Positions 9,101-59,042 of a stretch of 64,000 nt of DNA are shown piece after piece. Origin of the DNA: Metallyticus violacea (Eukaryota > Arthropoda > Insecta > Mantodea > Metallyticidae); NCBI GenBank assembly GCA_030762175.1, contig CM060833.1, positions 7,257,001 to 7,321,000 of the forward strand. The letters run 5' to 3'. The position numbers and the translations under genes were made by a program. Position 1 is the first letter of the stretch. Every line of letters starts with the position of its first letter. The notes under the pieces were generated by a model. It was not told the DNA's origin, searched no databases, and saw only the letters and a program-made list of their open reading frames with translations.

Positions 9101-12100
9101 TGACTGACAATCCTTCAAAAAATATAATGCAAATCCAGATAGCTCTATTGATTCCACAAAACTCAAAAGAATTGTATGAAAAAGAATGTGAAATAGAAGT
9201 CTAGGTCATAAGTTTTCATAAGGCATTACCAGTTCCTACTTGTCACAGTTGTCGATACTTATGACTTTTGACATCCTGCCAATGCATTTGCTGTTTCGCT
9301 GCATATTGGAACCACCAGAGTTCACATTGTCACCTGTCAACATTAGTCGATCCCCACTGAAGATGAGCGAAAGCTCTTGAAACATGTTCTGATAAATTAA
9401 TCAGTTAATAAAGTATAGTGTTACCAAATCTAGACTTCGTTATGTGTATAATGTTAACATATTTATTAAATTATAATAGAATATTGATTAATCACAGAGG
9501 TAAGTTTCCTATATGAGTACAAATTCAGTTTTCTTAGATGTCAAATTAAGCAGTTTACATGGGGCATTGCTTTAAAGGAAGTTACACAGAGAATGCATTT
9601 AAAATAAGCTAAAGATAGCTAACTCTTAATGCAGTAGAGGTTAGCAAAGGCTCAGGAAAGTACAAACTGTACCCATTATGAACCATTCTGATCATTATAA
9701 CAGCATATTTATAATGCTAGGATTGCATTAATGCAGTAAATACAGTTACTTTATCAATATTATCATACAATACCTAAAGTAACATAACTGTTTACTTACC
9801 CTGAATACTGCCAAAATTATTCGTGTCACTTTTTCCTTGACAGAGTCACTTAGAATGTCAGCTAGTATTGGAATGACGCTAAACCTAATAAAAGAATTTC
9901 AATTAATACCTTCCAAAGTTTTAATTAAAGAAAACAGCTTAAGAATGTTTAGAAACTTACTTATTCATTTTTTCGGCAAGAAGAGGGTTGAAAGTCAAAA
10001 CCCAGAGGCAGAATATAAGTTGATACTGTACTTGAAAATTAACCCTTCCTTGAAGTACTGCTAATAAAGTTGAAATTCCATCAACAGCAACAAATGCAAA
10101 ACGATACTCATCTATGCGAAGCATCATCTGCAAACATCTTCCAACAGACTGCATATATTCATTGTTCTGAAAGCAAATGATATTAAAAAGCATTAAAGCA
10201 ATATAATTTCGCTCTTTAAAATTTAATAACTTTACCTCTAGTTTACACAACAAAAATTTCTGCTATTAATGTGCACAATATTACAAAGTTACAGTTTAAA
10301 TTTTTTTCACTTTCTATTTTTATATTTTTTATACTTTGATGTTTCCACTCTGAATTTAGTTGTACTCTTAACATGTTGACATGCTCCTTTTATAATATTG
10401 CAGTTTAATAAATGGCAAAGAATTTTCACTTGTTTTAAATTTAAGTTCTAGAGCAGTGTGGTCCTACAGGTGGTCCCTAGGTCAGAAATTGCCCTCAGGG
10501 CACTTTTCTGTGGCTGGCAAGAAATTAGTTCATGTTTCTTAATAATCTAAAACTGAAGTTTGAGATCAAATGTAGTACCTATATACTAAGTTGAAGAATT
10601 AAGAGTCGGTCCTAATGGTGTGGTGGTTACCATACTCGCATCCTAAACCCAAGATTGCGCATTCAATCCTGGCCAGGACCGATGAATTTTTTCGTGTAAA
10701 AATCCTTAAGTATGACTTCCTTCAGAAGCGAAGTAAAGTCGTGGGTCCTGTGTCACACATTTACAGCACAAAAAAGAACCTCAAGCCTGAAAGAAGAGGC
10801 CTCTGAGGAAAATTTGTCAGGCGCTTCATGTCCTAATTTGAATGGGAAGCTAATGACCTGAGATGTTAAAGAGTGTCCGTAAATAAAGCAAATATTAACA
10901 AATGAAGAATTAAGCAAGGAACAGAAAGGCTGTACTCAGGTAAAAACCATTCCTTTGTCACTTCTGGCTACATTGTAAGTGAACCTAAAAAATTCAGAGC
11001 TTTGCATTCTAGGAATGACAAAGTAACTCTAGTGCAAGGTTGCTTCAGCACGAAGATTAATGTCCACAGAATGGGTTTAAGAATTACAGATAATTTCAAA
11101 CTTCTTTCCTTGTGTCTTCGGTTCTTTAGTGCATATTAGTCACAAATTAGCACAGATGTGTGAACTTAAAATGTGTTAGTTAGCTTGTTATGTATTAACC
11201 ATCAGTTTAAGTACTTCAAGCACACATAAATAAATATAGATTTAAATAGCTGAGGTTTTTACAGTAAAATATAGTATAATATAACAAATTATTTATGAGG
11301 AAAATACTCAAATTTCATTAGTTTTTAACATGTTCAAGTAAGTGGAACTAAACTAGTGAAATTTAAATGATTTCCTCATAAAGTTGACCCTTCAGCACAT
11401 CCTAATATACCTCTAGCCACATTGATGTGGCACCATTTTTATATTAATAATCCCCCTCTTGACGGATTAGCAGCAGCTAGACCTTTTTTGAACTCTCAAG
11501 CACCTCCTCATATCCCATCTATAGATTTAATTTGTCATTTAGCCTATCTGGTTCTCACTCACAATGCATTTAGTTTAGTAATTATCTACAAATTAAGGCA
11601 CTGCAAGGGCACCAGAGGGGCACCGTTCTATGCCAATCTTTTTATGGTTTGCTTTGAAGAGGAATTCAATAAGTCAGAACCTCTTGCACCACTATTATGG
11701 TTAAGTTATATTGATGATATATTCGTGCCTTGGACCCATGGCTTAGAATCTCTCGATCAGTTCCTTATCAATCTTAACTCAAATTTTTCAGTTAAGGTCA
11801 CTTTTGTCTTTCCCAATGCTGCAACATTCCTAGATAGGTTTTGGTATATCTTTAAACAATGACTCTTTTCTTATGTCCATGCTTATTAAGCCCATCAATT
11901 ACAACATTTATCTTCATTTGGATAGGTACCATTACCAACATACCAAAATATCTATTCCTTTCTCTCTTTCAATTCTTGGCCAACATATTTGTAACATGAA
12001 TAAATTCATGTGATATATATCGTACTAAACACTCTTATTGCTTCACGACATATATTGCATGAATTTATTCATATGACTTGGCTTCACTGTGTTAGTTCCA

Positions 12101-19300: not shown

Positions 19301-22300
19301 ATAAAATAAACAGTATGACAATGTGGTTCAGTAGCACAGGATTTTTCATTCTGGACAAACAAGCCTGGAAGAAGGTTCAAGAAGTGGCCACCCATCTCTC
19401 ACCAAGGGATCATGAATTGTGGCACAAGTGGAGGCCCTTTGCTTTAAGACTGTCAAATTTATGTCGAGGAAATAGTAGAGAAGTTGGACATTAGTCATGG
19501 TTCAGTGATAAACGTCATTCACACATGACAAAAGTTGCTTCTTGTTGAATACCTCACTTGTGCACACCTGAGCAAAAATAGCGCAGTCAAAATATTGCAG
19601 CTTTACCAAGCTGATTCTGATAATTGTTTTGAGTGCTGATCACCATGGATGAATGTTGGATGTATCATTATGACCCTAAGAGTTATTGATTTGGTTTATT
19701 TAGGGGCACTATTTAACATCTCAGGTCATCAGCATTCCATTCAATACAGGGCATGAAATGACTGATAAATTTTGCTCAGAGACTTCTTCTTTCAGGCTCT
19801 TGCGGTTCTTTTATGTGCCATAAATGTACGACACGGGACATGACCCTGAGAGTAAGTGGCAGGGCAAACAGTAGAAGTGCTCATATTCAGCACCATTAAA
19901 AAAAGTGAAGAGATAGACATCATCAGGAAGGTCATGTTAAAAGTTTTTGAGGCTCTCATGGTGTATTTTGACAGATTATGCCTATGAGGTCCAAATAATA
20001 ACTGGAAAATACCAGAATCTCCTGACAAGAATGAGGAGACCATCAATAAAAAATGGTGCAGGAATTTGTCCAAAGGAATTTGTTTGCTGCATGACAATGA
20101 ACCAGCACATTCCTCACATCAGACTTGCATGCGACTGCTCTGACATATGAAAATTTATTCCATACTGGCACCGAATGACTTCTCCTCTTTACTTGCATGA
20201 TGACCCCACTGCATGGCAGTCATTTTCAAGATGATAAGATGATACGAGAAGTGGAGTAGTTCTTCAGTAGCCACAGTGAGAAGTTCTATCGCCAGGATAT
20301 GCACAGCTCATCCATTAGAGGGAGAAATGTGTCAGTTTGTGTGGTGCGGTGCAAATGTGGAGAACCAGAACCAAGACTCTTGGCCATTTGCTCTTTGTTC
20401 ATGGTGATAATACAAACTTTCTCCCCTTTATTAAATGACTGTGTAAACTACTGATATATCTGCAGTGTCTAACATTGTAATAAGTTCTGAACATTTTATA
20501 CATATCAGATCTTTGAAACTGATATTGTAATTTTCAGTCATCACCCATGTACCCCTAAAAGCTACACTTTATTTTCTGAAATTATGGTCTACTGTATTAA
20601 ATTTAAAACTAATTTAGTATCGGAACTAATACAGTGAGGTGATTAATATACTCTTAATTAGTTGGTGAGTTGATTTAATACTCTTATGCTCCTCTTACCA
20701 TTGAATTATACAGAACACGTTTCACAGGCACTTGCTCGCATCATCAGCCGTGAGTTGACTGCTAGATTCATGGATGGTTGGATGGACTTGGTGCAGCTCT
20801 CATGGATATTTTATGAACTTTTGGATTAATTTGTCTCCTCTTGAGATCTTGAAATTCACAACCTTATCTTCATATTTTTTTATAAAAATTTTTCCCCATG
20901 TTACCAGCTTCTAAGAACTATCTACGAATTTCAATAATTTGACTTCCATGTCTATATCCTGTTTATTTCTCCAAAAGTGATGTGCAACTGATTTATCTAT
21001 CTGATGTTTCTCTAGTGTTCCTTTAGCCTAATTCCAATTCTACTTTTTGTTTTGACAATATATTCTTTGTTGCATTCCAAGCAGCTGATTTGATAGATTC
21101 CTGGCTTTTTCTCAAAAAAAAAAAAAAAAAAAAAAAAAATCCAGAAAATACCTGGAGTGTTTGGTATTAGCTTGTCCTCAGTGAACAAATTAAGCCTAAA
21201 TAATCTGCCCATCTCCGAATGACCTTTGGAGTTGGAAAGAGAGAGAGAGAATAAGGTTGTGAACTTTGACATCTCAAGAGAAGACAAATTAATGCAAAAT
21301 TTCATTAAATGTCCACGAGAGCTACACCAAATTCATCTAATCATCAATGAATCCAGGAATCGACTCATAGCTGAAAATGCGGGCAAGGGCCTGTGAAACA
21401 TGTTCTGTATAATTTAATGGTAAATGGAGCATAAAAATATTAAATTGACTTACCAGTTTATTAAGAATATATCATCTATTATGTTCATAAAACTTTTGTT
21501 TTCAAGATTTTCAATCAAACAGAATATTGTTAAAGGTAACAAAAGTACTGCTATGCTTTTAGATCACTTTAGGCACCATAAATTCTGTGTAGACAGCCTT
21601 TAAGTTTTCAAAAAATTGCAAAGCACTTTTTGTTATTTTCATAAAACAAAAAACAAAAGTTACATAAATACTTACTGTAAATATGACTGCCAGTTAACCC
21701 TCTGTGCACGAATTTCAGTGGCCTGTTGCTGCAGAACACTGGTTGCTGCCAGCATATCTGTAATAACCAGCATCAATAAAATTATTTATAAATTATACAG
21801 AAAAGTGTAAAACCCAGTTTATGAATTCCTTTCATTTAAGGTGATTCTAGTATATTTAATTATTTTTTCCTACATGAACTGTTGTTCAGCAACTGACACT
21901 TTTGGGCAAAATTTAGGGTTTTATTAATATTGATGGTTATGGTTAGCCATATATAATGAAGGATGGAGCAATAAGTTATAGTTATAATTTGGTAACAGCC
22001 AGGCTACAAATGCTCTCTGATGCATAACAACAGATATTAGAGTGGATTTGGCTATCTGCTCTAAGCAATAGACTATTGAAGTTCTACGGTGTTTAAAACC
22101 AATAAGTACAAAACTTGAGGGTGAACATTTTTAGCAAAGATTTTGTATAGCCTTGACTGAAGAACATATGAAACTGTAATAAAAGAAAATGTAAGGATAT
22201 CCTGTGGAGCGATCCAATGACCTATAGAATTACTTGAGTAATTTTTTCCACTGAGCATGTGCATGTGTGTTTCCTGCCATTAACTGGAACAAATCATGCT

Positions 22301-25300
22301 AGCTTTCAGCTGTCAGTGTGGATCTGGTAGTACTGAGTTCAATTAAATTACTACAGGTGGTGTGATTTGTTCTGTATTTAATCGGGAAGTGAAATCTTCA
22401 GTACGTATTTTCTATTGCACAATGTATATATATATTTATTGTATGTATATAAATTAATGATTCATTTTTGTTAACTCAGGCAACTAATCAAGTTTAAAAA
22501 AAAAAAAAACAGAATAAAAACTGCGTCAAGTGGCTGAGGTCATTAAGGCATGGATACATGAGCAGGAGGCCTGGGGTTCAATTCCCACCAAGATTGTCCT
22601 TCCTGACTGAGGTTTTTCCAGGTTTTCCTCAGTTCTCATGAATGGCAACTGCTGGGAGATATCCTAAAATTAGGTATGGAACACTTCCTTCCTAAATCAT
22701 TTCATTATGCATCATCAGTGCTCACTACTTGTGATGCCTCAGTAGTTAAAACAGGTGTTAAACATTATTTAAAAAAAATAAAAACAACAACCACCTAAGA
22801 AGCTTTAGATAGCATTGATCATTGTTTTTCCTCCAAAAAACTACTAAGACACGCTTCTTTGTTTAAATAGTACAAGTAGATACATCAAGTTTTAAAAAAA
22901 TGTATACAAATATAACTTGGTTTTATGTGTGAATTCTCCTAAACTATAACATACATTTTCTGTTAAATAATTTTAATGACCTTTAATTTTGCTTATGCTT
23001 GATTAATGTCCTTTATTTTTTGGGTAGTCTGCTGTATAACTCTTTCCGCAAGTTGGTTGAGTCTTGTTGTTTGGTGGTCCCCTAAGTGTGGACCTAAAGT
23101 AAGCTTAACATTTTTAGATTATAATTATATATCATATAAATTTTTGGTTTACCTTTGTTTTGTAAAAAAAAAAAAAATATACATTCGTAAATATATATGC
23201 ATGGACAATTAATACATTAGTATTTTTGAAGATGTATCTCCATGTCATTTTTTAGTCTTCCTATTATTCTCATGGATTTTTTTTGTAACTTAAAAATACT
23301 CCCTACTATTTAAATAAGTTGCATATATAACACTAAGACATGCTTTGCGAACACATGTAATCATTACTCATGAAATTAAACCGGAGGCTAAGGTGCTGAA
23401 AGAATTTCATAACCCAATGGAGCTATCCATTCTGGGAAAAAATTTCATTCTAAAAAAATAAGAAAAACTTAATGAATTTTGATGTTCTCCCCCCCATGGA
23501 CTAACCCAAAAAGTTCCTACTAGAACCATCAGAGACCTGCACAGAAGCACCTTGGAAACCAGCCACCAATCGAGTAGCTGCTTGATGATGGGAGCGAGTG
23601 CTTATATAACACTTAATGGAGTACTAACTCTAAGTAACATGTTTAATACATTAGTGTAGGTTCCCTACTTTTCACATGGTAATATTTCCACATAATACGT
23701 CATATTTTATATGCAAATAAATGAACGCACAGTAAACCTGCTTACTTGTTTCACTATCAATTGATCTTCTGATTTGCCTCATTATGTAAATACCTTATTT
23801 ATCTTTTTTGGTAACATACTCTATTTAAGATTTCCAACTTAACTGCTTGTCTATTATCATGCCTATAAAATTTGAGAACAGTGTTTCTTGAATGTCTTCC
23901 TCTATTTTGAGTTGAATAGAATTTGTAGAGCATTTCTTAATTCAAAATTAATACGTGCTGTTTTTTTTATATTTAGTACAATGTTTAGAATAGAGTAGTA
24001 ATGTTTTACCATTGTTAGAATTGCATTTGCCTTGGTTTCCATGTATGTTGCTGTTTTATCTTTTATTATTATTGTTATATTATGCATATCCTATTGCTAT
24101 TCCCCCATTTTTTGTACTAATTAAAAAATGTCACTTACATATGCTATCTAGTCTCATGATAAATACTGTCACAAAGTTTGCAATAACTTACACAAAATGA
24201 TTTGAGATATTTTATTATTCTAATTACATTAGTTAAATGGGTGTATAATAAATAAAAATTACATATAATTATTTAAAATGACCTCCTTTGGCATGCACAC
24301 AGTCCTCAAGTCTTTGTGGCCACTCATCTATTGAATTACATAACACTTCCATTGGGAAATCTGCATTGCCTTCTGAATAGAATACTTCAAACTTTCAATA
24401 TTTGGATGTTTCTTCTTGCAAGCCATTTCCTGAAGCTTGTATCACAAATTGTAGTCCAGAGAGTTTAGGTCTGAACTTGCAAAAGACCAATCCAAGGTCA
24501 AAATAAAGCCAGGAACAATGGCCTCAAGTCATTTCTGGGTTGTCCAAGCCTTTTTGCTGGGGCTGAATCCTGTTGGAAGCTTCAGCTTTGTGCATGGAAA
24601 TGGGTGTTGAGGTTCTTGACCATTTTCTCCAACAATGTCTACTAGTACACTTTGGCCAATGTTTTAACCCCCTTTTTTGCTAAAATGGAGCTCACACCCA
24701 ACCACACCATAACATATGCAGGATTTTCTGCACAACAACTGCCAAATATCCCATCATTTTGGGCATTGAAAGTCTCCCCAAACCTGAAAATTGTTTCATC
24801 ATTAAAAAGGATTCTTCGATCATTTGGTGCATAACACTGAGGTAAGCATTTTGATTTTTAGAGCCTCTGGTGCTTCAGTTCATGTATGAAGAGCTGTCCT
24901 TTCCAACATTTGTAAACACCAAGTCAAGTCCCAGGTCATTGCTCCATGTGCCAGACATAGACATTGTAGAAATTTTCAGCTCACGAGCCATCACAAACTG
25001 TCTCCATTCTGGATTTCTTTGCACACAACATACCGCCACTACTTTCACCAATTCTGGAGACACACAGTGCATCGTCTTCCTTGCCTGTGGCAGTTTTTCA
25101 CAGTTCCAGTCTCAAGAAAGCAATGGATAGTGCGATACACAAACTCCAGCTTATTTTCAGTTTCTGAAGTATTTTGAAAATTTCATCTGGGGATTTGCTT
25201 ATCTTGGGCAAAGCTACCACAGCTATACAATTTTCTTAATCTCCCCATTCCATCTTGAAAACTAACACAAACAGTTTTCCACTTCTGCAGCTGAACTCTC

Positions 25301-28300
25301 AATGACTGATCACTAGCACCACAATTCAGGAATGCACAGGTTGTTAGAGGGGGAAGTACAGCCATTCTAAAATGTTCTGGCAATATTTATGGTTAAGAAT
25401 GGTCCAAATTTTGAACTCTGTGGAACTTCTTGTCTTATAATCCAGAGATCTGATTTTATTTTTTCTAACCTACCATTTATGTTCTCATGTTTATTTCTAC
25501 ATATTGTGTTTTGTTTTTTTGTGTATGTTTTTTTTACCAGTGTTGTGCCAGTCCTGTCCCTTATTTATTTATGATAATGTCTGGATTCACACAGTCCAAG
25601 GCTTTTGACAAATCAAGATTTTTAAGAAATATCTTTTTATTTGCTGCTGGAGATTTTATACATTAATTACAATTACATTTTTTTTCTTTTAAGCTAATTT
25701 CTATTGCTGCCATTTCACACATCATTTGACTGTACTTTACTGCAACCCATTTCTTTGTATCTTAGTGCATTTTCTATATAAATGGCTACCTTAAAGCTCT
25801 GTACAGAGTTTCTAAATTGTTATGGTGAAACCATATATGAATGAATACTTTATTTCTACTAATTTCTTTTCACAATTAACAACCTGGTTTATATGTAATA
25901 GATCCTACCTTCCTATAACTACATTTTTCAAAATTATCTCCATAAATATCTTCTTCCTTTAATCTAATTACTTTCTTCCACCACTTTCCTCTTATCTTCC
26001 CATGATAATTACCAAATTTTCTTAAAAACTACTTATTGCAACAAAATTGCTATCTGCAAATAATTCATGCTCCTTCTATCCATACTTTAGTTTCTGAATA
26101 TTCAACTATACAATATAAATCCTTTTCTATTTTCCCACATAATGGACGCCCTTGCATTTTCACTTTTAATCCACTTAGCCTATTATTCCTGCTCCACTTC
26201 AAGCAAATCCCTCCCTTCTGCTTCTTTAAAAACATCTACATATTTTTCCTTCTCCCATTCTTTCTTAAATTTCCTACAGTATTTCAAGATACTCTAACCT
26301 TGTAAACTACTCCTTATATCCTGCTTTTAAATCTCATCTATTTTTAGTTTCACTTTATTCCATAATCCTTGTCTATTAATTATCTACTGTCTATCTAAAT
26401 CACTTGTTCCAATCATGAACTATTAGTTAAAATCATATAAAATCTGTGGCACATGCTCTTCAACCAGGCGATCCTGTAAGTGGGGGCACATTTTGTGAAT
26501 TGAGTCTGAATAAATATAAGAACTTTCAAAAAATAAGACATTTTTAAAAAATTCTGTTGGAACTCGGATAGGGAAGCTTGTCAAATGTAAATTATATCTA
26601 ATCTATCGTCTAACACACTCTTATGCTTCACTTACTTTTAGTCGTCAAGTTGGTTGAAGATGGAGAGGATGTTTCTTCGAAACCAGTCCCACAGTATTTA
26701 AAAGTGAAGCATAAGAGTGTGTTAGACGACAGATTAGATATAATTTACATGAATTTGAATAGTTTGTACAACAGAAAAACAGACGCATATTTAATATTTT
26801 TCTTGTATGAGGTCTGGTTCTACATTTATTGCTATATGTGTACAATGTTTCATGGAGTGCTGAGGAATGATATTGCTCATGAAGTGCCCTTCCATGGCAA
26901 AAAAATTGGTGTATGGTATGCCTTAAGTGGAGAAAGAATTATAGGGCCTTCCCCCCAGGCTTGTCAACATAAAAGACAATTATATAATGAGCAAAAGCTC
27001 AGTAAAGACCCTAAATTAAAAAAATATTTTAAAAAGTATTGTAAGATACTTTAGGAAGGTCATAAAAGCAGCAAAAGGCCTCCATTACCAAACATTTATC
27101 AGTCAGCTCAAAAACAAAATAAAAACTACTTGGAATATAATAAAACAAGAACCTCTTTAGGAAATTTGCAATTTTAACTGTTTCTTGTGAATATGTTTTA
27201 TCCCTCATGAACTTTTATATAAGAAATAAACAAAAATTTGTTCAAAATCAAAATATGCATAACAAGAATACTAGACAAAAAGCAAATCTACAACTTCAGC
27301 ACTTTCATGCCATAAAAAAGTTGTTTATTATCAATGCATTTTAATATACAATGCTCTTCCCTCTAGCCTAAAAGCCTTAATAAACAATGACAATTCCTTT
27401 AAATCTGCTCTTAGAAAATACCTATGTAAAAAGGCCTATTATTCTGTAAAGGAATATATGAGTGACAATAGTATACTGCACAACATATCAATGTATATGT
27501 AAATATGTATTAATAAAAGTTGTATGATTGATTTGTCTGTTTTTGGTGTTGGTTGAGTTGTTCTAAGTGTTCTTTTTTATTCTTATTATAATTATTTATG
27601 TAGATGTAGACAAATTTTTGTATATACAGATTGAAAGCTACTGTGGTAATTGCATATGACAAGTTGTATGTTCGTAGGTCTCTGTGACTGCTCCATGAAT
27701 TCACTGAATGCTCCAGGAACTAAACTAAACTAGGCAACCATTTATGTCCCACATTTGTGAATACAATTTTGCCCCCCTTTTGTTTTAGAGAATTAATCAA
27801 CAGCATGCATGATTGTATAAAATATAGTGAACTTTTGTAACAGTGGTGTCAAATATTAACATTTTAAAAAAAATTGAGTCGAAATTGTAACATACACACC
27901 AGTAAAATTCAATAAAATGGAAGACTAGTTTCGTGAGCCATCGCTCCTATCATCACACATTGAGTCGACCAGGAACTGATGATAGGAGCAATGGCTCCCG
28001 AAACTAGTCTTCCATTTTATTGAATTTTAGTGGTATGTATGTTACAATTTTGACTCAATTTTTTAAAAAGCATGCATGATATCACCTTCTTTCAACAAGA
28101 CTCTGCCATAGCTCATAAAGTGAATATTTTGGTGAGAGAAATTGAAAGTGTTTCAGAATGACAGAGCTATTAGTAATGCTGCCATTTGTGGCTCCCTCAA
28201 TCTTCCAATCTAATTTCTTGTGATTTAATTTGTGAGATAGATTAAAAAATATTCACACGTACCATGAAAGAATTGAAACAAAATATCTGCCAGGAAATAG

Positions 28301-31817: not shown

Positions 31818-32525
31818 ATGGATGAAACTCAGAAACTGGTGGTCTTTTATTGTGTTTTTTCATGTATTTACATGTCTGTAGTAATAAGTATTTTTTATGT
31901 CACAGGGCATGTTTACAACATTGGGAAATATTCATTCTTTCCCACTCATGTAATGATGTTCATTGTAGAATGTGTAAAGTATGTTGTTGGAAATTTCTAC
32001 ATAGCTAAATGTAATGAAAGATGTGAAGATAAATGTATAGTCAGTTTTCACAGAAAGAATCCTAACAGAAGCAAGTTCAAAGATGGGATTAAATGTTTTA
32101 CGATTTTTGTAGTAACACTGATTATTTATTTTATAGTTATAGTAATGCTTGGGGCACCGGTGTTTAGTAAGCATGAGGAAACCTTAATGTTAAGTATGTT
32201 GCTATGTGTTCTGACGGTATGTCCAGTCTGCCTGAATCTGGGGGCTGCACCAATTCCTGGTATGCTCTTTGGATGGAAACCTGGAACAGACATGTTGGCT
32301 ACATGGCTTCTGCGATGTATGCAGTTGACTTTGTTTGGGACTTGGCTAGGAGCAATTGTCATTCCACTAGACTGGGATCGTCCATGGCAAATATGGCCTA
32401 TCCCATGTGCTGTGGGAGCTCTGCTGGGATTCCTAGTGGCCAATTGTTCCACTTTGTTCCAAATGTTGCCAAAACTTGTAAAGAAAACTGATGGCAATGT
32501 TAAAGGTAGTCGAAAATTAAAGTAA
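31818..32525 (+). CDS. PIGF: PIG-F, ethanolamine-phosphate transferase cofactor of GPI-anchor synthesis
   Basis: A single uninterrupted ORF of 235 codons with a strong start context (GACATGG). PIG-F is an ER multi-pass protein that stabilises and works with the PIG-O and PIG-G ethanolamine-phosphate transferases late in GPI-anchor assembly. The family signature near residues 175-200 is clear: GTWLGAIVIPLDWDRPWQIW followed by PIPCAVGA (human: [20 protein letters not shown]). About six hydrophobic segments are visible: residues 8-32, 41-62, 92-115, 123-145, 170-186 and 193-212. The C-terminus is basic (KKTDGNVKGSRKLK). Human PIGF has 219 residues and several introns; here there are none, so either introns were lost or this is a functional retrocopy. 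Confidence 0.93.
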   Translation: MDETQKLVVFYCVFSCIYMSVVISIFYVTGHVYNIGKYSFFPTHVMMFIVECVKYVVGNFYIAKCNERCEDKCIVSFHRKNPNRSKFKDGIKCFTIFVVTLIIYFIVIVMLGAPVFSKHEETLMLSMLLCVLTVCPVCLNLGAAPIPGMLFGWKPGTDMLATWLLRCMQLTLFGTWLGAIVIPLDWDRPWQIWPIPCAVGALLGFLVANCSTLFQMLPKLVKKTDGNVKGSRKLK

Positions 32526-33005: not shown

Positions 33006-33006
33006 T

Positions 33007-33288
33007 TTTTTTTTTAGTAGTGTTTAACGCATGTTTTTACTGCTGAGGCACTACAGGCAGTGGACACTGATGATACATGAAATGATATATTATGAAAGGA
33101 TATTTTTTTATGGAAGGAAGCGTTCCAGGCCTAAGTTTAGGGTACCTCCCTGGCATTTGCCAGTTATAAGGACTGAGGAAAACCTGGAGAAAACCCCAGT
33201 AAGGGAAGACGGTCCCAGTGAAATTCGAACCCCAGACCTCAGGCTCACGAGTCTGCACCTTAATGACCTCAGCCACCCATAGCAGTAC
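33007..33288 (-). mobile_element. SINE A, full length
   Basis: Inverted features in order: T-run, TTACTGCTGAGGCACTACAG, GAAGGAAGCGTTCCAGG, AGGGTACCTCCCTGGC, GACTGAGGAAAACCTGG, box B as GAAATTCGAACCCC, and box A side as TTAATGACCTCAGCCACCC. Confidence 0.9.
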
Positions 33289-33451: not shown

Positions 33452-33732
33452 TTGATTAACTACTTATTAATTTTTGGGTTGCTTGATGTGGTTGTGGCTG
33501 GATTCAAGCTGCTACTTGATCCACATATATTTTCTGAAATATGAATTTGCTGAATTCATTCAGGGGTGGGATGTCAAAATTCATTAATTTTTCTCAGTTT
33601 TTAAGAATGAAATTTCTAAAATGTTCTTTCCTCCAGGTTTCTAAATTTCTTTTTGTTTTTTCTATGTGTTTTAAATAGCAATCTATGTATACTATTGCAT
33701 ATAAGCCTAATTTTTTTATCTGATTCTGTGCT

Positions 33733-33998
33733 TTAATGCCTGTTTTTAATACTGAGGTACCACAGGTGGTGGACACTGATGATACATGAAATGAAATGAT
33801 ATATTGTGAAAGGATATTTTTAAGTAAGGAAGTGTTCCAGGCCTAAGTTTAGGGTACCTCCCCAGCATTAGCCAGTTATGAGGACTGAGGAAAACCTGGA
33901 AAAAACCCCAGTCAGGGAGGATGTTCCTGGCAGGATTCGAACCCAGACATCGCGCTCACAAGTCTGCGCCTAAACGACCTCAGCCACCCATGGCGGTT
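33733..33998 (-). mobile_element. SINE A with perfect 10-bp target duplication
   Basis: Flanked by ATTCTGTGCT at 33723-33732 and 33999-34008, inside PLE family B. Internal features are those of SINE A (GACTGAGGAAAACCTGG, GATTCGAACCC, ACGACCTCAGCCACCC). Confidence 0.9.
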
Positions 33999-34878
33999 AT
34001 TCTGTGCTATCTTTCAACAAATAAGCTAACAAGTTTTTAATATTGCATTTATTTTGTGGTGTTAATTTTGTGCATTATTCTTTGAAGAACTTCCCAAACT
34101 TGTGATGATATTCTGAATGATAAGTGAATCTGCTGTATTTTTAATTCTCTTTAAAATTTCAAGTGTAGAAATGTGGAATGGATTTTTGTCTTTTGAATTT
34201 GTTAATTTTTTTAATATTGTGTTAGCGCTGTATCGGTTACTTATTGCTGTATTGAATATATATTGTAATTCTTTTTCTTGTATTGTTTTTGAGAGTGGGA
34301 TATTAACTACTCTTGTGTTACTCTTTACAAAATTAGAAAACTCAGGAATAAGAGGACATGCACTCTGGATCAAATTATACCTAAACCGGAGAGCACAAAT
34401 AATAGAAATAAAACATTGCAAATTAGGTATTCTAACATTATCACCGGAGTTGAGCAGATTTTTAGCCTGAATTTGTTCACAGGGGTAATAATGATAGATT
34501 ACCTGATGAGAAGAAGCCCGAAACATATAAAATCATCTGTTCAGAATGCAACAAAGTATATATTGGCGAAACAAAAAGAAGATTGGAAATAGACTAAAGG
34601 AATACTAGAGAAACATCATGTACAATCAGGTAGATGAAACAGCAGTTACACATCACGTTTGGAGAGCTAAACATGATATAGAAATGGAAGTCAAATTATT
34701 GAAATTCATAGATGAGGATTTTGGAGCTGGGAATTTGGGAAAAAAGTTTTATAAAAAAATATATGAAGATAAGGTTATGAACTTGTAGATCCAAACAGAA
34801 CATAAATTAATCCAAAAGTTCATAAAATGTCCATGAGAGCTACACCACATCCATCCAACCAACAATGGCAGTTGATTC

Positions 34879-34920: not shown

Positions 34921-34937
34921 ATAATTCAATGGTAAGT

Positions 34938-35204
34938 TTTTTTAATGATGTTTAACGCCTGTTTTTATTACTGAGGCACCACAGGCGGTGACACTGATAC
35001 ATGAGATGAAATTATATATTGGGAAAGGATTTTTCAGGACATTCCAGGCCTAAGTGTAGGGTACCTCTCTGGCATTTGCCATTTATGAGGACTGAGGAAA
35101 ACTTGGAGAAAACCTCAGTCAGGGAGGATGGTCCTGGCAGGATTCGAACCCCAGCCCTCCCGCTCATGAGTCTGTGCTTTAATGACCACAGCCACCTGTG
35201 ACAG
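34938..35204 (-). mobile_element. SINE A inside PLE family A, 12-bp target duplication
   Basis: Flanks TCAATGGTAAGT (34926-34937) and TCAATAGTAAGT (35205-35216). Carries GGATTCGAACCCCAGCC and TTAATGACCACAGCCACC in inverted orientation. Confidence 0.9.
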
Positions 35205-35779: not shown

Positions 35780-35878
35780 AGGGGGAAGTAAGTCAAATTT
35801 CACTGATTTTGTTCCACTTACTTGGACATGTTTCGAAGTAAGTGGTGTAAAATTAATGAAATTTGAGTGACTTCCTCA
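35780..35878. repeat. Fold-back family C copy 2
   Basis: Inverted arms GGAAGTAAGTCAAATTTCAC and GAAATTTGAGTGACTTCC; centre CTTGGACATGTTTCGAAG holds the 3' half of a hammerhead (GAAACATGTCC on the minus strand). Confidence 0.65.
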
Positions 35879-35880
35879 AA

Positions 35881-38039: not shown

Positions 38040-39720
38040 GAGCATTTACATAAGTGGGTCAATTGAAAAGTTTGGTAACAATGAGTTTTTATAACATGCT
38101 CACTTTATTTCTCAACATAGTTTCAATCAATGCCTATACACTTTGTCCAGCAAGGTTTCCAATTTTTCCATCCCATTGGAAAAATAGGATCTGCCAAACT
38201 CTGCCAAATACTTGTTGTCAGCAACTTCATTTGATGAAAATTTCTTCTCATCAAACAACATTTTCAAGTTCAGGAATAGGATGAAGTCACTTGAAGCTAA
38301 ATCCAAAGAATACGGTGGACAAGGAATCAAAAATTGAACAGACTACATAATATATTACTACACTCAAATATACATACTTTATACAAAAAAGAAACTCAAA
38401 TTTATAATGCTGAGTTAAACTTTTTCTTAACTGCTACTGGACCCCAATCTCTGATTCATCAGCAGTCACATACTGGAATTCAAAGAGACTGCAGCCCAGT
38501 TTCTTACTAAAACATTCTCTTTACTTATGTACTGATATACTAATTTAGATTAAAATTTATTTTAATAACTAATATTCCATTTTATTTGCATATTATTCAA
38601 TCCAGTACAAAGTAAGATCTAAAAATAAAATTATACTAATCTTACTTATCCCTTCTAGATATTTTCTTTCTAGAGATGCTGGCTTATAATCTAATCCCAA
38701 TATACACAACTCCAGATTATCAGTGTATTGGTAACTGACAAGGAACTAATTTAAAGCCCAATTCATGCACTTTGTTCATTGTGAGCTAGAGCATTGTCCT
38801 GGCAAAGCAGCACTTTTTATGTGCCAAACTTGGCAGTTTTTCATTCACAATGCATGTTTTAAATGATCCAACAATGAAGTGTAACAGTTGTGGTTCTGCC
38901 TTTTTCCAAGTAATCTATTAGGATTATACCCTGGAAGTCTCCCATTAAAAAAAAAAAACCTGGGCCTTCCTCTTTCCAGTCAACAAAACAGTCCTTGCCT
39001 TCCTTGGCATGCTCTCACCAGCCTTTGACTGCTGCTTTGTCTCTGGAGTGTAGTGGTGGACCCAAGTTTCATCCACAGTCACAAATTGGCTCAAGAAGTT
39101 CTGCAGATTGTAATTAAACAGTGCTAGATACTGTATGAAATGTTCTTTTGGTAAGTCAGCAATTGCAGCACCCAATGTGCATACAGCTTTCTTGTTTCTA
39201 ATTTTTTATGCAAGACATTGTGCATTTATTCAGTTGAGATGCCTGCAGTCTCATCGCACTTTCACTTGGCACTCTTGCATAATGACATAATTGATTTTTT
39301 CAGTGATTTCCTTTGTGGTAACCTCAACTGGTATGCCAGAGCAGCTTTTTCAACTTTTAAGCTTATTCACTCGGAAACAAACAGTCTTCAGTAATGGTGC
39401 AGAGTCTGCATTAACTTCCTGCAGCTCTGCTTTAACTTAATATAACAAGTTATTATTGAGGAATCATTCAAATTTCACTAATTTTATTGAGTAAGCGGAA
39501 CAAAATTAATGACATTTGAGTGATTCCTCAATAACAATTTGTTATATTATACTATATTTCACTGTGAAAATTCCAGCTATTCAAAACTACTTATAAAATG
39601 TCTGCTTTAACTGTTTTGCTGCCCAATCCCTTAAATGGAAATGTTTAATAACAGCAAGAATTTAATTTTTTTTCCATTTTCTACAGCAGATGGAGCACCG
39701 ATCACTTCAGATAGTTGTCA
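38040..39720 (-). mobile_element. mariner-type transposon, degraded, with two insertions
   Basis: Minus strand: FLSQFVTVDETWVHHYTPET, KQQSKAGE, RKARTVLLTG, LCQDNALAHNEQ (HDNA motif), then CPPYSLDLASSDFILFLNLK and YLAEFGRSYFSNGMEKLETL. This is the usual mariner order. An unclassified 420-bp insertion lies at about 38341-38760 between the last two blocks, and a fold-back at 39440-39575 near the N-terminal end. Confidence 0.82.
39440..39575. repeat. Fold-back family C copy 3
   Basis: Arms ATTGAGGAATCATTCAAAT and ATTTGAGTGATTCCTCAAT surround AGTAAGCGGAAC. The right end TTGTTATATTATACTATATT matches 11270 and 58455 in inverted orientation. Confidence 0.7.
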
Positions 39721-41055: not shown

Positions 41056-41096
41056 ATGGTTGACAATGTGAGTGAGTGCCTTACGAAACGTCCCAA
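41056..41096 (+). ncRNA. Hammerhead variant with U3/A8 core
   Basis: Core TTGACAA (41060-41066) in place of CUGANGA, stem II GTGAG/CTTAC, intact GAAAC (41085-41089), then GTC without the usual two-base loop. Stem I TGG/CCA. Same core as in the palindromic PLE. Confidence 0.55.
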
Positions 41097-43504: not shown

Positions 43505-43676
43505 TTTTTTTTTTTTTTTTTTTAAGATGGAAACATTCCAGGCCTAATATTTGCCATTAATAAGAACTAAGGAAAACCTGGAAAAAAGCTCAATCAGGGA
43601 AGGTTATTATGCAAGGAATGAAACCCCAGACTGCTGCTCAAGAGACTGCCTTTATGACCTCAGGCACCCATGTAAG
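43505..43676 (-). mobile_element. SINE A, partly deleted
   Basis: T-run, AACATTCCAGGCCTAA, ACTAAGGAAAACCTGG, GAATGAAACCCCAGACTGC and TTTATGACCTCAGGCACCC in order. A deletion removes the 3' central part. Confidence 0.8.
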
Positions 43677-43679
43677 AGT

Positions 43680-45190
43680 GCATATACTTTTATTTTAATG
43701 AAAAAATAGGTTCTTATGAATGTCACTTGCACTATTTTGTGTTCTTACATAATAGATATTAATGTCACGATTTATAGTGTTTCACCAATTTCATTTTACC
43801 TCTATCTCTGAAGATGAACTTTTCTGAAAGGAACTCTAATTATAGCAAACACTGCTAGCTGTTCAAATGGACAGAATGTTTGCAGAACCTGAAAAAAGAA
43901 TTATGGGGATATTTCAAGTGGATAAGGATTATTGGAAAGGCCTTTAATTCTCAATAAATAAAGTTTAAAATCTATGCAACCATTAGGAGACTCATATTTT
44001 CTATATTTTTTTCTTTTTCTTTCTGGAAAGGAATTGAGACTCAACACTCACTATTTTTTGTAATTTAAGAATACACAACACTTTTCAAAAAGTCATCCCC
44101 AAAGCTCACACAGCCAAGCCAAGCAATTTCTTTGGTTTTATTCACATACACCCTTTACAAAAAAAAAAAAAAAAAAAACTCTCAGCACCCAGGCAGCTAT
44201 TTGCCTCTGCACTTCACATCACAATCTGTACAGTTCCTCAAGTTTTTACTTCTCTATGTCCCGTCTTTAACTTCACATGATCCAGATAGTTTAAATTACT
44301 CCGGTAAAAAATCTGCTTTAGACCAATTATATTAGAGTATTTTTTACATTAACATAAAATATATTTAAAGCATAATTAAGTACATCACTTTATAATTTTA
44401 TACAGAGCTGTAAAAAGGATTCTAATGCAAGATTATTTATAAACAATATGGTTTTTTCAGATGTTAATCATCAAAAGTGCACTAAGTTAACAAATTACCC
44501 AAATGAAAGTCTCTCTTTTTCCTTCCAAAATTTATAAGAGATTGGGAAATACATGGTTGTTATAAATCTGAATGAATTAATATATCTTAAGGAGTAATAA
44601 TGCATACTATAAGATTTCTATTATAATTTTATTGAACTTCTGGCTTTTGTTGCATCTTAGCAACATGTTCTACATTATGTGAGAAAAAAGCTCCCCTGCA
44701 ATGCCTTATATACTGTGGTGCGGTATGTTAATATTATTTTTGTTTTTATAAATTTCATTGGTTTTCAAAATATTTTTATTAGTAAAAATTTTTGTTTCAC
44801 TCATGCTAAATGTATGATCTTGTCAAACTGCATATGTGATTGACCTAGATCATGCATTCTGCTACAGCGAATCTACCTTCTGATTCAGTCAGATGCAGCA
44901 TTATGTTCCTGCTTCCTAGTGCTTATAGAATGTACAGTCGGCCATATATATATATATATAGTTTTCACATTTACATTGAATCTGTTATACTCCAGAAAAA
45001 CTGTAGGTGCCTCCAAGATCCTTTACTATAAATAATAAACCCAGTGATTTGTGAGTAGTTTTATAGGATGGTATATTTTTTAGTGAACTTGCAACTTTGT
45101 AACACCTCTATGCATGGGAGGTAGGTATAGATTGTAGTAGGGGTGGGAAAGAAGAGCACATACCTCAATAAAAGAACTTCTTGATAGATG
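43680..45190. other. Intergenic, no recognised element
   Basis: Contains an A-run at 44159-44178 and a short AT tract at 44946-44960; nothing coding. Confidence 0.5.
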
Positions 45191-45194
45191 AATG

Positions 45195-45262
45195 CCTTTG
45201 AAACATGTCCAAGTAAGTGGAACAAAATTAGTGAAATTTGAGTGATTTCGTAACAATAATTT
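45195..45262. repeat. Fold-back family C, partial copy
   Basis: Only one arm is present: TTTGAAACATGTCCAAGTAA, GTGGAACAAAATTAGTG, TTTGAGTGATTTCG. It begins with the 3' part of a hammerhead (GAAACATGTCC). Confidence 0.55.
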
Positions 45263-45531
45263 GTCAAACTTCTTGATACTTTGCAGAAGAAACATGCCTC
45301 ACAAGCCTCTCAAGAAGATAAGTATTCTTCTGATATTATGAGGTGCACCGACATCTTTGCCAATTGGAAGGCTTTAGCCTTCCATGCAGAGCAAATAGCT
45401 TAAATGTATGTGCAAGTGAGAAGAAAGGTGGTAGAAGGTTTGATCTTAGTCAACTCATGAAGTCAATTCATTTAATCCTGAGTCTTTGCTTTATGTTGTA
45501 TGGGAAAATCTGCACCCTTGTGCTTATAAGG

Positions 45532-48910: not shown

Positions 48911-48914
48911 TTTT

Positions 48915-49168
48915 TTTAAACAGTGTTTCATGTCCGTTTTAACTACTGAGGCATCACAGTTAGTGCACAATGATGATACACGAGATGAAATTATAACCTG
49001 GAAAAGATTTTTTGTAAAGGAAAGAAGAGTGTCAGAGTGCCAAAGTTTAGGGTACCTCTCAGAAATTTGCCATTTATAAGGAAACCTGGAAAAATCTGCA
49101 GTCGGGGAGGATGGTCCTGGTTGGAATCAAACCCCAGACCTACCACTCAGCCACCTGTAGCAGTGCTA
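48915..49168 (-). mobile_element. SINE A
   Basis: T-run, TTTTAACTACTGAGGCATCA, AGTTTAGGGTACCTCTC, GGAAACCTGGAAAAATCTGC, GGAATCAAACCCCAG, CACTCAGCCACCTG. Box A region shortened. Confidence 0.85.
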
Positions 49169-55380: not shown

Positions 55381-55520
55381 TACTGTATACCTGTTTACGG
55401 AATGTCTGAATTCACACTGAAACTTTTGTTAATCTCATTTTGATTTCAAGTAAAACACTAAAAATCATGTCGTCACATTAAAACTCTCTTTAAGTTTCAC
55501 AAACACGCTTATAAAAGTAA

Positions 55521-55568
55521 TTTTGGTACATGTTTCTTGAGGTACATTCCTCACATTGTCAACCAAAA
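55521..55568 (-). ncRNA. Hammerhead variant (U3/A8 core), left arm of palindrome
   Basis: Minus strand: stem I TTTTGG/CCAAAA (6 bp), core TTGACAA, stem II TGAGG-AATGTA-CCTCA, intact GAAAC, AT loop, GTA. Bases 3 and 8 are U and A instead of C and G. All other core bases fit. Confidence 0.65.
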
Positions 55569-56556
55569 CGACGACTGAGGAGTCAAATTCAGCAAGGTAT
55601 GTATGTTGCTATGTTTGCTCTGGTGGTCTGTTAATGAACTTATACTTCCGGTATATCAAAATTCATAAGTTTGTATTCATATTTTATGTAAATTTTTTCC
55701 CATATATTAAGTTCTTTCGGATGTTGAATTGTTTTTAGTAATGTTATGTCCTCCTCTATTTCATGATTCTCATTCCAAAAATGTGCAGCCACTGCTGATT
55801 TCTCTACTTGTTTGTGTCTAATATTTCTCCAGTGTTCCTTTAATCTTATCTCCAGATTTCTCTTTGTTTTTCCTATGTATATTTTGTCACAATCGTTGCA
55901 ATTAATTCTATATATATCTGAATTTTCTTCTTTCTTCTTTTTTTTGTTTAATTTTATTTAGATTCAATAATTTACCAACACTATATCTGTTTATTGGTGC
56001 CAGAGTAATGCTATACTTTTTGAAAATTTTTTGGAATTTATGGTTAACATAAGGGTGATATGTGAATTTTTGATAAGTGTTTTCTTTAAGTGAAGAACTG
56101 AGTGTAGTGATTAGTTTAATTTCCTTTTTATTTTTAAATCTTTTTATTTTTTATCTACCATTTGTTTGTTAAATCCATTAATTTCTGCTGTGTGTATTAT
56201 GTGTGTGTGTTCTTTCCTGTATTCTTCTTTACTGAGTGGTGTATTAACTAGCCTATATGTCATACTATTGAATGCTGCTTCCTTGTGGGGTCTGGGGTTG
56301 AAACCTTTTGCTTTTATGTAATTGTCGGTATATGTGTCCTTTCTGTACATACCAAATTCTATATTTTTATTCCTTTTTATTATCCTTAGGTCCAGAAAAG
56401 GTAAAGTATTATTAACGTTGGTTTCCATAGTGAATTTTATGGCTGGTTCTTGCAAGTTCAACAGTTTCAATGCATCTTCCATAAATCTATCTTGTACAAT
56501 GGTAAACACATCATCTACATATCTGTACCATGTTTTGAATATGTATATATGTATAC

Positions 56557-57027
56557 ATGTATACATATAAGGAGCCTTCCCATACATATATGTATATATG
56601 TATACATATAACGAGAGCCTTCCCATACATATTCAAAACATGGTACAGATATGTAGATGATGTGTTTGCCTTTGTACAAGATAGATTTATGGAAGATGCA
56701 TTGAAACTGTTGAACTTGCAAGAACCAGCCATAAAATTCACTATGGAAACCAACGTTAATAATACTTTACCTTTTCTGGACCTAAGGATAATAAAAAGGA
56801 ATAAAAATATAGAATTTGGTATTTACAGAAAGGACACATATACCGACAATTACATAAAAGCAAAAGGTTTCAACCCCAGACCCCACAAGGAAGCAGCATT
56901 CAATAGTATGACATATAGGCTAGTTAATACACCACTCAGTAAAGAAGAATACAGGAAAGAACACACACACATAATACACACAGCAGAAATTAATGGATTT
57001 AACAAACAAATGGTAGATAAAAAATAA
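56557..57027 (+). CDS. PLE reverse-transcriptase C-terminal half, right arm
   Basis: Open frame from IFKTWYRYVDDVF (catalytic Asp pair present) through NTLPFLDLRIIKRNK, FGIYRKDTYTDNYIKAKGFN, NSMTYRLVNTPLSKEE and NGFNKQMVDKK to a stop. The palm motifs before YVDD are missing, so it cannot be a working RT. The left-arm copy (56626-56144, minus strand) differs at only a few residues. Confidence 0.8.
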   Translation: MYTYKEPSHTYMYICIHITRAFPYIFKTWYRYVDDVFAFVQDRFMEDALKLLNLQEPAIKFTMETNVNNTLPFLDLRIIKRNKNIEFGIYRKDTYTDNYIKAKGFNPRPHKEAAFNSMTYRLVNTPLSKEEYRKEHTHIIHTAEINGFNKQMVDKK

Positions 57028-57203
57028 AAAGATTTAAAAATAAAAAGGAAATTAAACTAATCACTACACTCAGTTCTTCACTTAAAGAAAACACTTATCA
57101 AAAATTCACATATCACCCTTATGTTAACCATAAATTCCAAAAAATTTTCAAAAAGTATAACATTACTCTGGCACCAATAAACAGATATAGTGTTGGTAAA
57201 TTA

Positions 57204-57575
57204 TTGAATCTAAATAAAATTAAACAAAAAAAGAAGAAAGAAGAAAATTCAGATATATATAGAATTAATTGCAACGATTGTGACAAAATATACATAGGAA
57301 AAACAAAGAGAAATCTGGGGATAAGATTAAAGGAACACTGGAGAAATATTAGACACAAACAAGTAGAGAAATCAGCAGTGGCTGTACATTTTTGGAATGA
57401 GAATCATGAAATAGAGAAGGACATAACATTACTAAAAACAATTCAACATCCGAAAGAACTTAATATATGGGAAAAAATTTACATAAAATATGAATACAAA
57501 CTTATGAATTTTGATATACCGGAAGCAGACAACATATTGTTTAAGTTCATTAACAGACCACCAGAGCAAACGTAG
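57204..57575 (+). CDS. PLE GIY-YIG endonuclease domain, right arm
   Basis: 123-residue open frame: [19 protein letters not shown] (G-I-Y is D-I-Y here; YIG present), NLGIRLKEHWRNIRHKQ, VHFWNENHEIEKDI and ELNIWEKIYIKYE. The domain nicks DNA in active PLEs. The lost Gly of GIY and the frame break from the RT suggest a dead protein. The left arm has the same domain with a one-base slip in an A-rich stretch. Confidence 0.8.
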   Translation: MNLNKIKQKKKKEENSDIYRINCNDCDKIYIGKTKRNLGIRLKEHWRNIRHKQVEKSAVAVHFWNENHEIEKDITLLKTIQHPKELNIWEKIYIKYEYKLMNFDIPEADNILFKFINRPPEQT

Positions 57576-57615
57576 CAATATACATACCTTGCTGAAATTG
57601 ACTCCTCAGTCGTCG

Positions 57616-57663
57616 TTTTGGTTGACAATGTGAGGAATGTACCTCACAAAACATGTACCAAAA
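57616..57663 (+). ncRNA. Hammerhead variant (U3/A8 core), right arm of palindrome
   Basis: Same as the left-arm motif with stem II GTGAGG/CCTCAC (6 bp), but AAAAC instead of GAAAC, so G12 is lost. Stem I TTTTGG/CCAAAA is kept. Confidence 0.6.
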
Positions 57664-57914
57664 TTACTTTTATAAGTGTGTTTGTGAAACTTAAAGAGAG
57701 TTTTAATGCGACGACATGACTTTTAATGTTTTACTTACTGTATACCTACTGATTCTGTTAAAACTTTGCTATTCTTATGCTATACTTTATTATTGTATTA
57801 TGAATTATTTCAACTAATGTTTTACCTTTATACACACTTTGTTAACTTTAGTATTTGACAATGTCTGAAACTTGTGTACATGAGTGTATTTACAGCAATA
57901 AATTTTTTATTATT

Positions 57915-58445
57915 ATTATATTACATAAAAGATCTGGTCAACAATAAGAAAATAGAAAAATTCAAAAAACAAAAAAAAAATAAAAGACATCACCACACTT
58001 AAAGGCTACAAAGGGAAACATATGTGCAAGAAACCACATACAATTCATGTTCACACAAAAAATTCCAGAAGATTTTTAAAGATGTAAACATCATTTTGAC
58101 TCCAGTAAACAAATGCAGTTTAAAAACCTAAAAACCAACACAAAAGCCAAAATTCTGCTGGAAAAACAATCAGGCATTTACAAAATCAGTTGCAAAGATT
58201 GCAATATGAAATACTTGTATATAGGCAAAATGAAAAGAAAATTTATCCTACAGTTCAAGAAACATATGAGAAATGTAGAATATAAACACATGGAGAAATC
58301 AGCAATAACATACCATTTCTGGGCCCAAAAAAAAAGTTCCAAAATTATTAAAAACTCTTCAAAAACCTATAGAATTAAAAGTATCAGAAAATATATTCAC
58401 AAACAAAAACAAAGAAAATTTATAGATTTAAATACCAGGGATTTT
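57915..58445 (+). mobile_element. PLE 3' fragment with GIY-YIG
   Basis: Linker remains before 58110, then KQSGIYKISCKDCN, YLYIGKMKRKF and MEKSAITYHFWAQ in one frame (58113-58460). It ends at a fold-back family C copy rather than at its own terminus. Confidence 0.75.
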
Positions 58446-58451
58446 CACAGT

Positions 58452-58690
58452 GAAATATAGTATAATATAACAAATTATTTATGAGGAAATCACTGAAATT
58501 TCACTAGGTTTGTTCCACTTATTTGAACATGTTCTGAAGGCTGTTGCCTTCATAATCAGCACGGTTCCACTGTCAGTTTCCCCTCTCAGAATGACATCTT
58601 AATACAATGCTGGGAAGCTGACAGTTGAACCTTCAAAACATGTCCGAATAAGTGGAACTAAATTAGTGAAATTTGAGTGATTTCCTCAAA
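58452..58690. repeat. Fold-back family C copy with two hammerhead remnants
   Basis: Arms TGAGGAAATCACTGAAATTT and GAAATTTGAGTGATTTCCTC enclose two inverted hammerhead remnants. Minus strand 58521-58563: CTGATTA core, stem II GAAGGC-AACA-GCCTTC, AGAAC, AT, GTT. Plus strand near 58618: CTGA, CCTTC, AAAAC, AT, GTC. The best-preserved copy of this family; it shows the family is PLE-related. Confidence 0.7.
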
Positions 58691-58751
58691 AAAAATTGCA
58701 AAATTGTTTTTGAAAGATGTATGAAATCCCTACCAATGCAGCATTATTCTA

Positions 58752-59042
58752 CTTTTTTTTTTTTTTTAGTGGTGTTTAATGCCCGTTTTTACTACTGAGG
58801 CACCACAGGCAGTAGACACTGATGATACATGAAATGAAATGATACATTGGGAAAGGATTTTTTTTAAGGAAGGAAGCGTTCCAGGCCTAAGATTAGGTAC
58901 CTCCCCGGCATTTGCCAGTTATGAAGACTAAGGAAAACCTGGAAAAAACCCCAGTCAGGGAGGACGGTCCTGGCAGGATTCGAACCGCAGACCTCCCGCT
59001 CACGAGTCCATGCCTTAACGACCTTGGCCACCCGTGGCGGTA
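58752..59042 (-). mobile_element. SINE A, best preserved copy
   Basis: T-run, ACTACTGAGGCACCACAGGC, GAAGGAAGCGTTCCAGG, TACCTCCCCGGCATTTGCC, CCCCAGTCAGGGAGGAC, box B as GCAGGATTCGAACCGC, box A side as TTAACGACCTTGGCCACCC. CpG sites are retained, suggesting a young insertion. Confidence 0.92.

Follow-up and report, generated by a model that had tools for sequence, protein, structure and literature searches.

How did a protein-less, palindromic insert of 255 bp that carries a hammerhead motif come to stand where it does, and did the ribozyme have any part in its arrival? In the original prediction it was a non-autonomous, ribozyme-only derivative of a PLE, moving as an inverted dimer and forming a compact analogue of retrozymes. 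The locus bears on a wider matter, as the mechanism behind inverted PLE copies is unsettled, with a self-priming proposal set against extension of both target strands, and very short dimers hold outer ends, duplication and junction within a few hundred bases, which makes them clean footprints for separating the two models. The PLEs of Adineta vaga described in the main text of PMC3846280 typically have an inverted pLTR, mostly head-to-head and with palindromes at the junction; there, an optional 31-bp tail is seen on one inverted pLTR, the described cases have duplications of 8 to 10 bp, and it was from the palindromes that this 2013 paper inferred self-priming. The protein of a lizard PLE cleaves and extends both target strands in vitro, has two internal start sites whose spacing equals the tail, and inserts in vitro without hammerhead cleavage (PMC11167929). 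In the main text of the latter paper the word “inverted” occurs a single time, of a blocked primer, and “head-to-head”, “palindrom” and “target site duplication” do not occur; both-strand extension is not tied to inverted copies there, and our coverage of the wider literature is incomplete. We analysed the insert within its window, the whole 64-kb stretch of DNA, which is AT-rich (G+C 33%), holds numerous retroelement relics and would be animal, probably arthropod, and we find it likely that the insert is a head-to-head pair of severely 5′-truncated PLE 3′ ends (pLTR plus hammerhead) produced by a single retrotransposition event.

The insert spans 27814-28068 and is a real insertion, with a target duplication on either side. 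Its parts are:

27802..27813, no strand: left target-site duplication AGCATGCATGAT, from exact repeat comparison
27814..27861, sense minus: one-sided “tail”, by position the RNA 3′ extension of the left arm
27862..27963, sense minus: left arm, PLE-type 3′ end (pLTR), including a broken hammerhead at 27923-27956
27964..27969, no strand: GTCGAC, a self-complementary hexamer at the junction between the arms, from sequence comparison
27970..28068, sense plus: right arm, PLE-type 3′ end (pLTR) without tail, from sequence comparison
27972..28013, plus strand: minimal type I hammerhead motif, complete in its core letters and predicted to be cut after 28009
28069..28080, no strand: right target-site duplication AGCATGCATGAT, from exact repeat comparison

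The predicted 12-bp target duplication is indeed perfect, and the two copies of AGCATGCATGAT, a direct repeat, are its sole exact occurrences within the 64-kb window. The inverted arms of nearly 100 bp are likewise present, 27863-27955 and 27977-28069 being 92% complementary over 93 nt with a 21-nt spacer, and ungapped comparison finds 6 differences over an 89-nt stretch; the stretch between GTCGAC and TGATGA differs far more from arm to arm than the remainder of the arms. There is a one-sided tail, as had been claimed, though its length of 52 nt is one choice among several: the left side exceeds the right by 48 to 54 nt according to where the arm ends are placed, and the value of 48 nt presupposes a 2-nt length difference in a T run. 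The RNA fold of 27802-28080 has a z of −22.7, with none of 200 shuffles equally stable. The G+C content of the insert is 32%, and no second copy of the 255-bp unit was found within the 64-kb window. An ORF for RT and GIY-YIG endonuclease is absent, and because 255 bp is too short to fit one, the insert can be a PLE fragment at most.

That removal of the insert restores the surrounding reading frame is correct as arithmetic, but trivially so, because 255 + 12 = 267 is divisible by 3. The identity of this frame as a transposase is unsupported, since comparison of the right-flank frame (28069-28374) with Pfam and PDB gave no credible match. The same frame holds several stops, as well as a 10-residue stretch with an FQQD-type motif that we take to resemble mariner-like transposases.

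The plus-strand hammerhead motif agrees with its description in every letter. It is laid out as GGAA-CTGATGA-TAGGAGCAATGGCTCCC-GAAACTAGTC-TTCC, with the core letters CTGATGA, GAAA and GTC, a 4-bp stem I (GGAA/TTCC), a 5-bp stem II (GGAGC/GCTCC) and a stem III of 2 bp closing a 2-nt loop. The word “intact” suits the core letters and goes too far for the rest, as an unpaired UA lies opposite C at the base of stem II, and Rfam at its gathering score reports no hammerhead in the insert. Because of this UA/C irregularity, self-cleavage is a prediction and an uncertain one. Permissive Rfam scans gave one cut-off Hammerhead_II match (10 bits, E 8.8, where the gathering score is 37), and we infer that the miss reflects the limit of those models for so short a stem III; matches of the scans to hairpin families such as MIR7533, all below gathering scores, reflect the palindrome and were set aside. 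The hammerhead that had been claimed for the other arm, in opposite orientation, is present only as a broken copy (27923-27956), with G in place of C3, no 5′ strand of stem I and a shorter stem II; in vitro, the C3G change by itself was enough to abolish the activity of a PLE hammerhead (PMC11167929). In folding predictions, the lowest-energy fold of the plus-strand 42-mer (−10.8 kcal/mol) is not exactly the hammerhead, stems I and II of which alone give −8.4, and a transcript of the whole unit would form a −133 kcal/mol hairpin in which the hammerhead is buried. The motif is unlikely to be a chance find: a scan for motifs of PLE geometry found none with an intact core in 200 simulated 64-kb windows (first-order Markov), and 71 core-deviant motifs across the 200 simulations, against 4 motifs in total in the real window; with looser geometry, 60 simulations gave 3 intact-core motifs against 1 in the real window. 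Scans of phage DNA and IMG/VR returned nothing relevant, with no contigs for two motif patterns and one 34-base match (E 0.9) to one cyanophage present as two records.

The window also holds PLE relics. When three window PLE frames were compared by tblastn with the window itself, RT or GIY-YIG relics were found at 4.4-5.2, 20.8-21.2, 33.6 (weak, E 2.5e-4), 34.0-34.8, 39.9-41.0, 49.3-49.5, 54.7-55.2, 55.6-57.6, 58.0-58.3 and 60.6 kb. Two of these frames match Pfam GIY-YIG (E 1.8e-5 and 8.2e-5), the better of them being:

57021..57575, plus strand: GIY-YIG endonuclease frame of a family B PLE (Pfam PF01541, E 1.8e-5)

Downstream of the endonuclease relics the architecture of the insert’s hammerhead, CTGATGA...GAAACNNGTH, recurs, with a hammerhead or relic at most about 165 bases from the tblastn match in 10 of 12 flanks; the other two flanks (49.5 and 58.3 kb) have no hammerhead of their own, and that at 58.3 kb runs into a family C dimer. 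Hammerheads were scored in rows chosen by eye, 14 in number with four from inserts, of which 13 were counted; the plus-strand row at 58.6 kb was struck, because in alignment its CTGACAG falls upstream of the other arm’s core, so that only the 3′ half is kept. The short stem III layout is common to all 13. Stem I reaches at least 4 bp in seven, in several letter combinations (ACGG/CTGT, GGAA/TTCC, GCAA/TTGC and TTTTGG/CCAAAA are examples), and this variety supports the hammerhead fold. The core is free of deviations in three rows (20.8 kb, 54.7 kb and the 255-bp insert), and the insert is the sole one of the 13 in which, in addition, stem I reaches at least 4 bp and stem II at least 5.

The family B relics at 41060-41094, 55527-55562 and 57622-57657 show C3 to T and G8 to A together, in all three copies. 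The 3-8 core pair belongs to the hammerhead structure. As the two changes co-occur, the family B combination is by its letters a natural compensatory variant that would retain the 3-8 pair. A paired double change at these positions rescues the hammerhead (PMC11167929).

The parent PLE of the insert’s exact family is not in the 64-kb window. With three of the four family A pLTR rows the right arm aligns above chance, over the hammerhead and the sequence on either side of it, with scores of 35, 36 and 38 (simulated means 18-20; 1, 1 and 0 of 500 simulations as good), part of the score being the hammerhead core itself. For the left arm and the same three rows, 2, 7 and 4 of 500 simulations were as good. 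The fourth row, which was joined from two halves, aligns with neither the right arm (211 of 500 simulations as good) nor the left (486 of 500). The insert’s PLE family is probably related to, yet not identical with, the families of the window.

The window contains six further inverted dimers of PLE type, which range from 96 bp to 2.3 kb in length and differ in their junctions:

11235..11382, no strand: family C dimer, left-arm tail, AACATGTT near the junction
20646..21474, no strand: family A dimer of endonuclease fragments and pLTRs, a hammerhead or relic on each arm, arms 82%
35785..35880, no strand: family C dimer joined at ACATGT, neither arm with a tail
39438..39600, no strand: family C dimer, perfect 12-bp duplication TCTGCTTTAACT at 39426-39437 and 39601-39612
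55440..57745, no strand: family B dimer of RT-endonuclease fragments and pLTRs, hammerhead relics on both arms, tail confined to the left arm
58421..58686, no strand: family C dimer, left arm with tail and hammerhead relic, right arm with the 3′ half of the hammerhead only

All seven dimers, the 255-bp insert included, are head-to-head with RNA 3′ ends outward. The duplication TCTGCTTTAACT at 39.4 kb directly adjoins the left arm, and its score is reached by 2 of 398 random place pairs; the 58.4-kb dimer has a candidate 11-base duplication with one mismatch (CAAAGAAAATT / CAAAAAAAATT), which 71 of 398 random pairs equal or better, and the search found no target duplication for four of the seven dimers. 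Family C also has a single copy at 45182-45274 beside its four dimers, and its link to PLEs comes from the hammerhead relic of the 58.4-kb left arm and from GAAACATGTC in the single copy at 45.2 kb. Its tail matches that of the endonuclease-bearing 41.0-kb copy in some comparisons only (0, 9, 14, 36, 364 and 440 of 1000 simulations as good for six B-C tail pairs), and as judged from these alignments the link between the B and C tails is carried by some pairs only. The family B dimer at 55440-57745 is probably young, because its arms are 95-99% alike.

Two observations stand beside this series. At the centre of the family B dimer there are ATATGTATAC-type repeats. At 34027-34839, back-to-back PLE fragments, minus then plus, come from different ORF parts and recall LINE-type twin priming; this candidate eighth pair (34.0-34.8 kb) has no inverted repeat and was excluded from the counts.

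The outer ends, compared by family and judged by eye to about 5 nt, are not scattered. In family A, TTAAGAATATA or a near variant is the stopping point of all four ends, which come from three insertions. In family C, three insertions supply four no-tail ends, which stop at about TTTCCTCA(TAAA), the tails of two insertions share the terminal TATTTAAATCTATA, and the 39.4-kb insert has one full tail with its other end mid-tail. The family B dimer has in its left arm the tail of the 41.0-kb copy, and its right arm stops short of the tail. Across the dimers, the tail differs between the sides in five of seven (11.2, 39.4, 55.4 and 58.4 kb, and the 255-bp insert) and is on neither side in the remaining two (20.6 and 35.7 kb). 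Compared with five other PLE tails, that of the 255-bp insert matched none of them significantly (72 to 498 of 1000 simulations were as good); homology to the other PLE tails of the window is unsupported by this comparison, and the label “tail” stands here on position only.

A single event at both target strands could have produced the insert. A PLE RT-endonuclease would have cut the two strands with a 12-nt stagger, of which the stagger is observed as the duplication and the enzyme is supposed, and both freed DNA 3′ ends would then have been extended on PLE RNA, the left arm from a distal start site (hence the tail) and the right arm from a proximal one (no tail). Both cDNAs would run past the hammerhead core, end within a few nucleotides on its upstream side and be joined at GTCGAC, where two like cDNA 3′ ends could have annealed. 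Because both arms retain sequence upstream of the cut, the template RNA was not cut by its own hammerhead, and neither arm was copied from a linear RNA with a 5′ end produced by that cut. The ribozyme appears to be a passenger of the pLTR in this insert, and the insert, having no protein, is probably a dead end. Priming on both strands leads one to expect a duplication outside, RNA 3′ ends outward, a tail chosen independently on each side and truncations that meet centrally. The second perfect 12-bp duplication, at 39.4 kb, supports it for the insert. Derivation from a PLE and an insertion event with target duplication, two parts of the original prediction, are supported by the duplication, the arms and the PLE relatives in the window. 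Against this explanation, a single template does not explain the divergence of the arms between GTCGAC and TGATGA, and the shared truncation point and the junction palindrome are predicted by self-priming too. The absence of the parent PLE from the window, the unmatched tail, the share of the core in the alignment scores, the unaligned fourth family A row, the dimers for which no duplication better than random was found and the two endonuclease flanks lacking a hammerhead also count against it.

Self-priming gives the same PLE origin to the insert by another route, in which the palindromic end of one strand folds back and copies itself into a head-to-head inverted repeat, and we hold it to be possible but rather doubtful. 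Self-complementary letters are found at the junctions of up to three of the seven dimers, namely GTCGAC in the insert, ACATGT at the 35.7-kb junction and AACATGTT near the 11.2-kb junction, provided that the left arm there lost about 14 nt; the palindromes at 35.7 and 11.2 kb are both the stem III letters ACATGT, and it was such palindromes at inverted junctions that led to the fold-back proposal in the main text of PMC3846280. However, a strand that copies itself should carry the tail onto both arms or end randomly, whereas the sides differ in five of the seven dimers and independent family C inserts have their no-tail ends at one and the same site, and the 39.4-kb junction is non-palindromic by eye. 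Because the outer ends recur by family, we favour dual-strand priming over the 2013 proposal. It is improbable that the insert belongs to a ribozyme-only family that propagates as an inverted dimer with PLE enzymes supplied in trans. It does lack a protein, one arm keeps all core letters despite the divergence of the arms, and the pLTR alone was judged sufficient for trans mobilisation in the rotifer, in the main text of PMC3846280; yet there is no second copy within 64 kb, the opposite-strand hammerhead is broken, the full transcript would bury the hammerhead in its −133 kcal/mol hairpin, and the related short dimers vary in length and junction, as single events would. The claim of a ribozyme-only element moving as an inverted dimer is unsupported for the same reason: the six window dimers, unlike one another in length (96 bp to 2.3 kb) and in junction, look like one-off PLE products rather than copies of a fixed unit.

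Two readings would take the insert out of PLE retrotransposition altogether. A DNA transposon of foldback or MITE type, with terminal inverted repeats and a coincidental hammerhead, would account for the long inverted arms and the target duplication, but is very improbable. Target duplications known for DNA transposons are shorter than 12 bp. Moreover, the left arm is not terminal but some 50 nt from the duplication, complete hammerhead letters occur in none of 200 simulated windows, and PLE-linked relatives of like layout stand in the window; the reading was dropped, as the repeats are not terminal on both sides and the tail is one-sided. A metazoan retrozyme copied from a small circular RNA, cut and circularised via the hammerhead, we consider the least probable origin. 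The insert does fall, by size and by its G+C of 32%, within the 170-400 nt and under 50% G+C given for retrozymes in passages of PMC7229834, and like metazoan non-LTR retrozymes as described there it is small, non-coding and hammerhead-bearing, those elements being possibly PLE-mobilised. Unlike it, they are tandem and have classical hammerheads and circular RNAs (same passages), and the type I hammerhead attributed to them in passages of PMC7761336 has a stable helix III. The insert has a minimal PLE-type stem III (2 bp, loop of 2 nt) and an inverted layout with no tandem or head-to-tail repeat. On this layout, an inverted pair only with no other copy in the window, the retrozyme reading was dropped, and the phrase “compact analogue of retrozymes” is unsupported, there being neither tandem layout nor stable helix III.

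What the insert does share with EN-containing PLEs is a minimal pLTR hammerhead, inverted head-to-head pLTRs with an optional one-sided tail, and a short target duplication, here a perfect one of 12 bp. Its closest counterparts in design are Pen2a, Pen5 and Pen6 of Adineta vaga, for which the main text of PMC3846280 describes the same head-to-head pLTRs, palindromic junction, optional tail on one arm and short duplication. Those copies flank ORFs or captured DNA, whereas the 255-bp insert has nothing between its arms; and hammerheads go unmentioned in that main text, while the insert carries one. The Poseidon PLE of Anolis carolinensis (PAc) likewise has a minimal hammerhead in its pLTR, its internal RT starts define the tail, and its cleavage and extension of both strands predict the insert’s layout; it was studied as a full element in vitro, unlike the insert (PMC11167929). 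By its letters, the insert is an unusually short example of a structural kind already known, and its hammerhead is well kept in sequence.

In LINE-1 twin priming, both target strands prime on the element RNA and an inversion results. The two pieces there come from different parts of the RNA, whereas in the 255-bp insert both come from the same 3′ part. One might ask whether short pLTR RNAs, needing little beyond a pLTR and its start sites, live as non-autonomous parasites of PLE enzymes, inserting by priming on both target strands and spreading as ORF-less head-to-head dimers of varying length. The window would then hold five such dimers (the 255-bp insert and four of family C), and we regard the idea as unlikely.

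Other features of the window lie apart from the dimers. A PIG-F frame was recognised:

31818-32525: PIG-F (GPI biosynthesis) frame, 235 aa, Pfam E 1.1e-28

An inverted pair at 45532-45623 and 46807-46898, 83% alike and 1.2 kb apart, has CTGATGA...GAAA letters in each member but lacks the stem III layout of PLEs. Another repeat, some 270 bp long and dispersed, has nine full or partial copies in the window:

1732-2013, 8248-8472, 22527-22784, 33006-33288, 33732-33997: copies of the dispersed repeat
34937-35204, 43549-43672, 48901-49149, 58744-59043: the remaining copies

One of these copies splits a PLE end at 34.9-35.2 kb.
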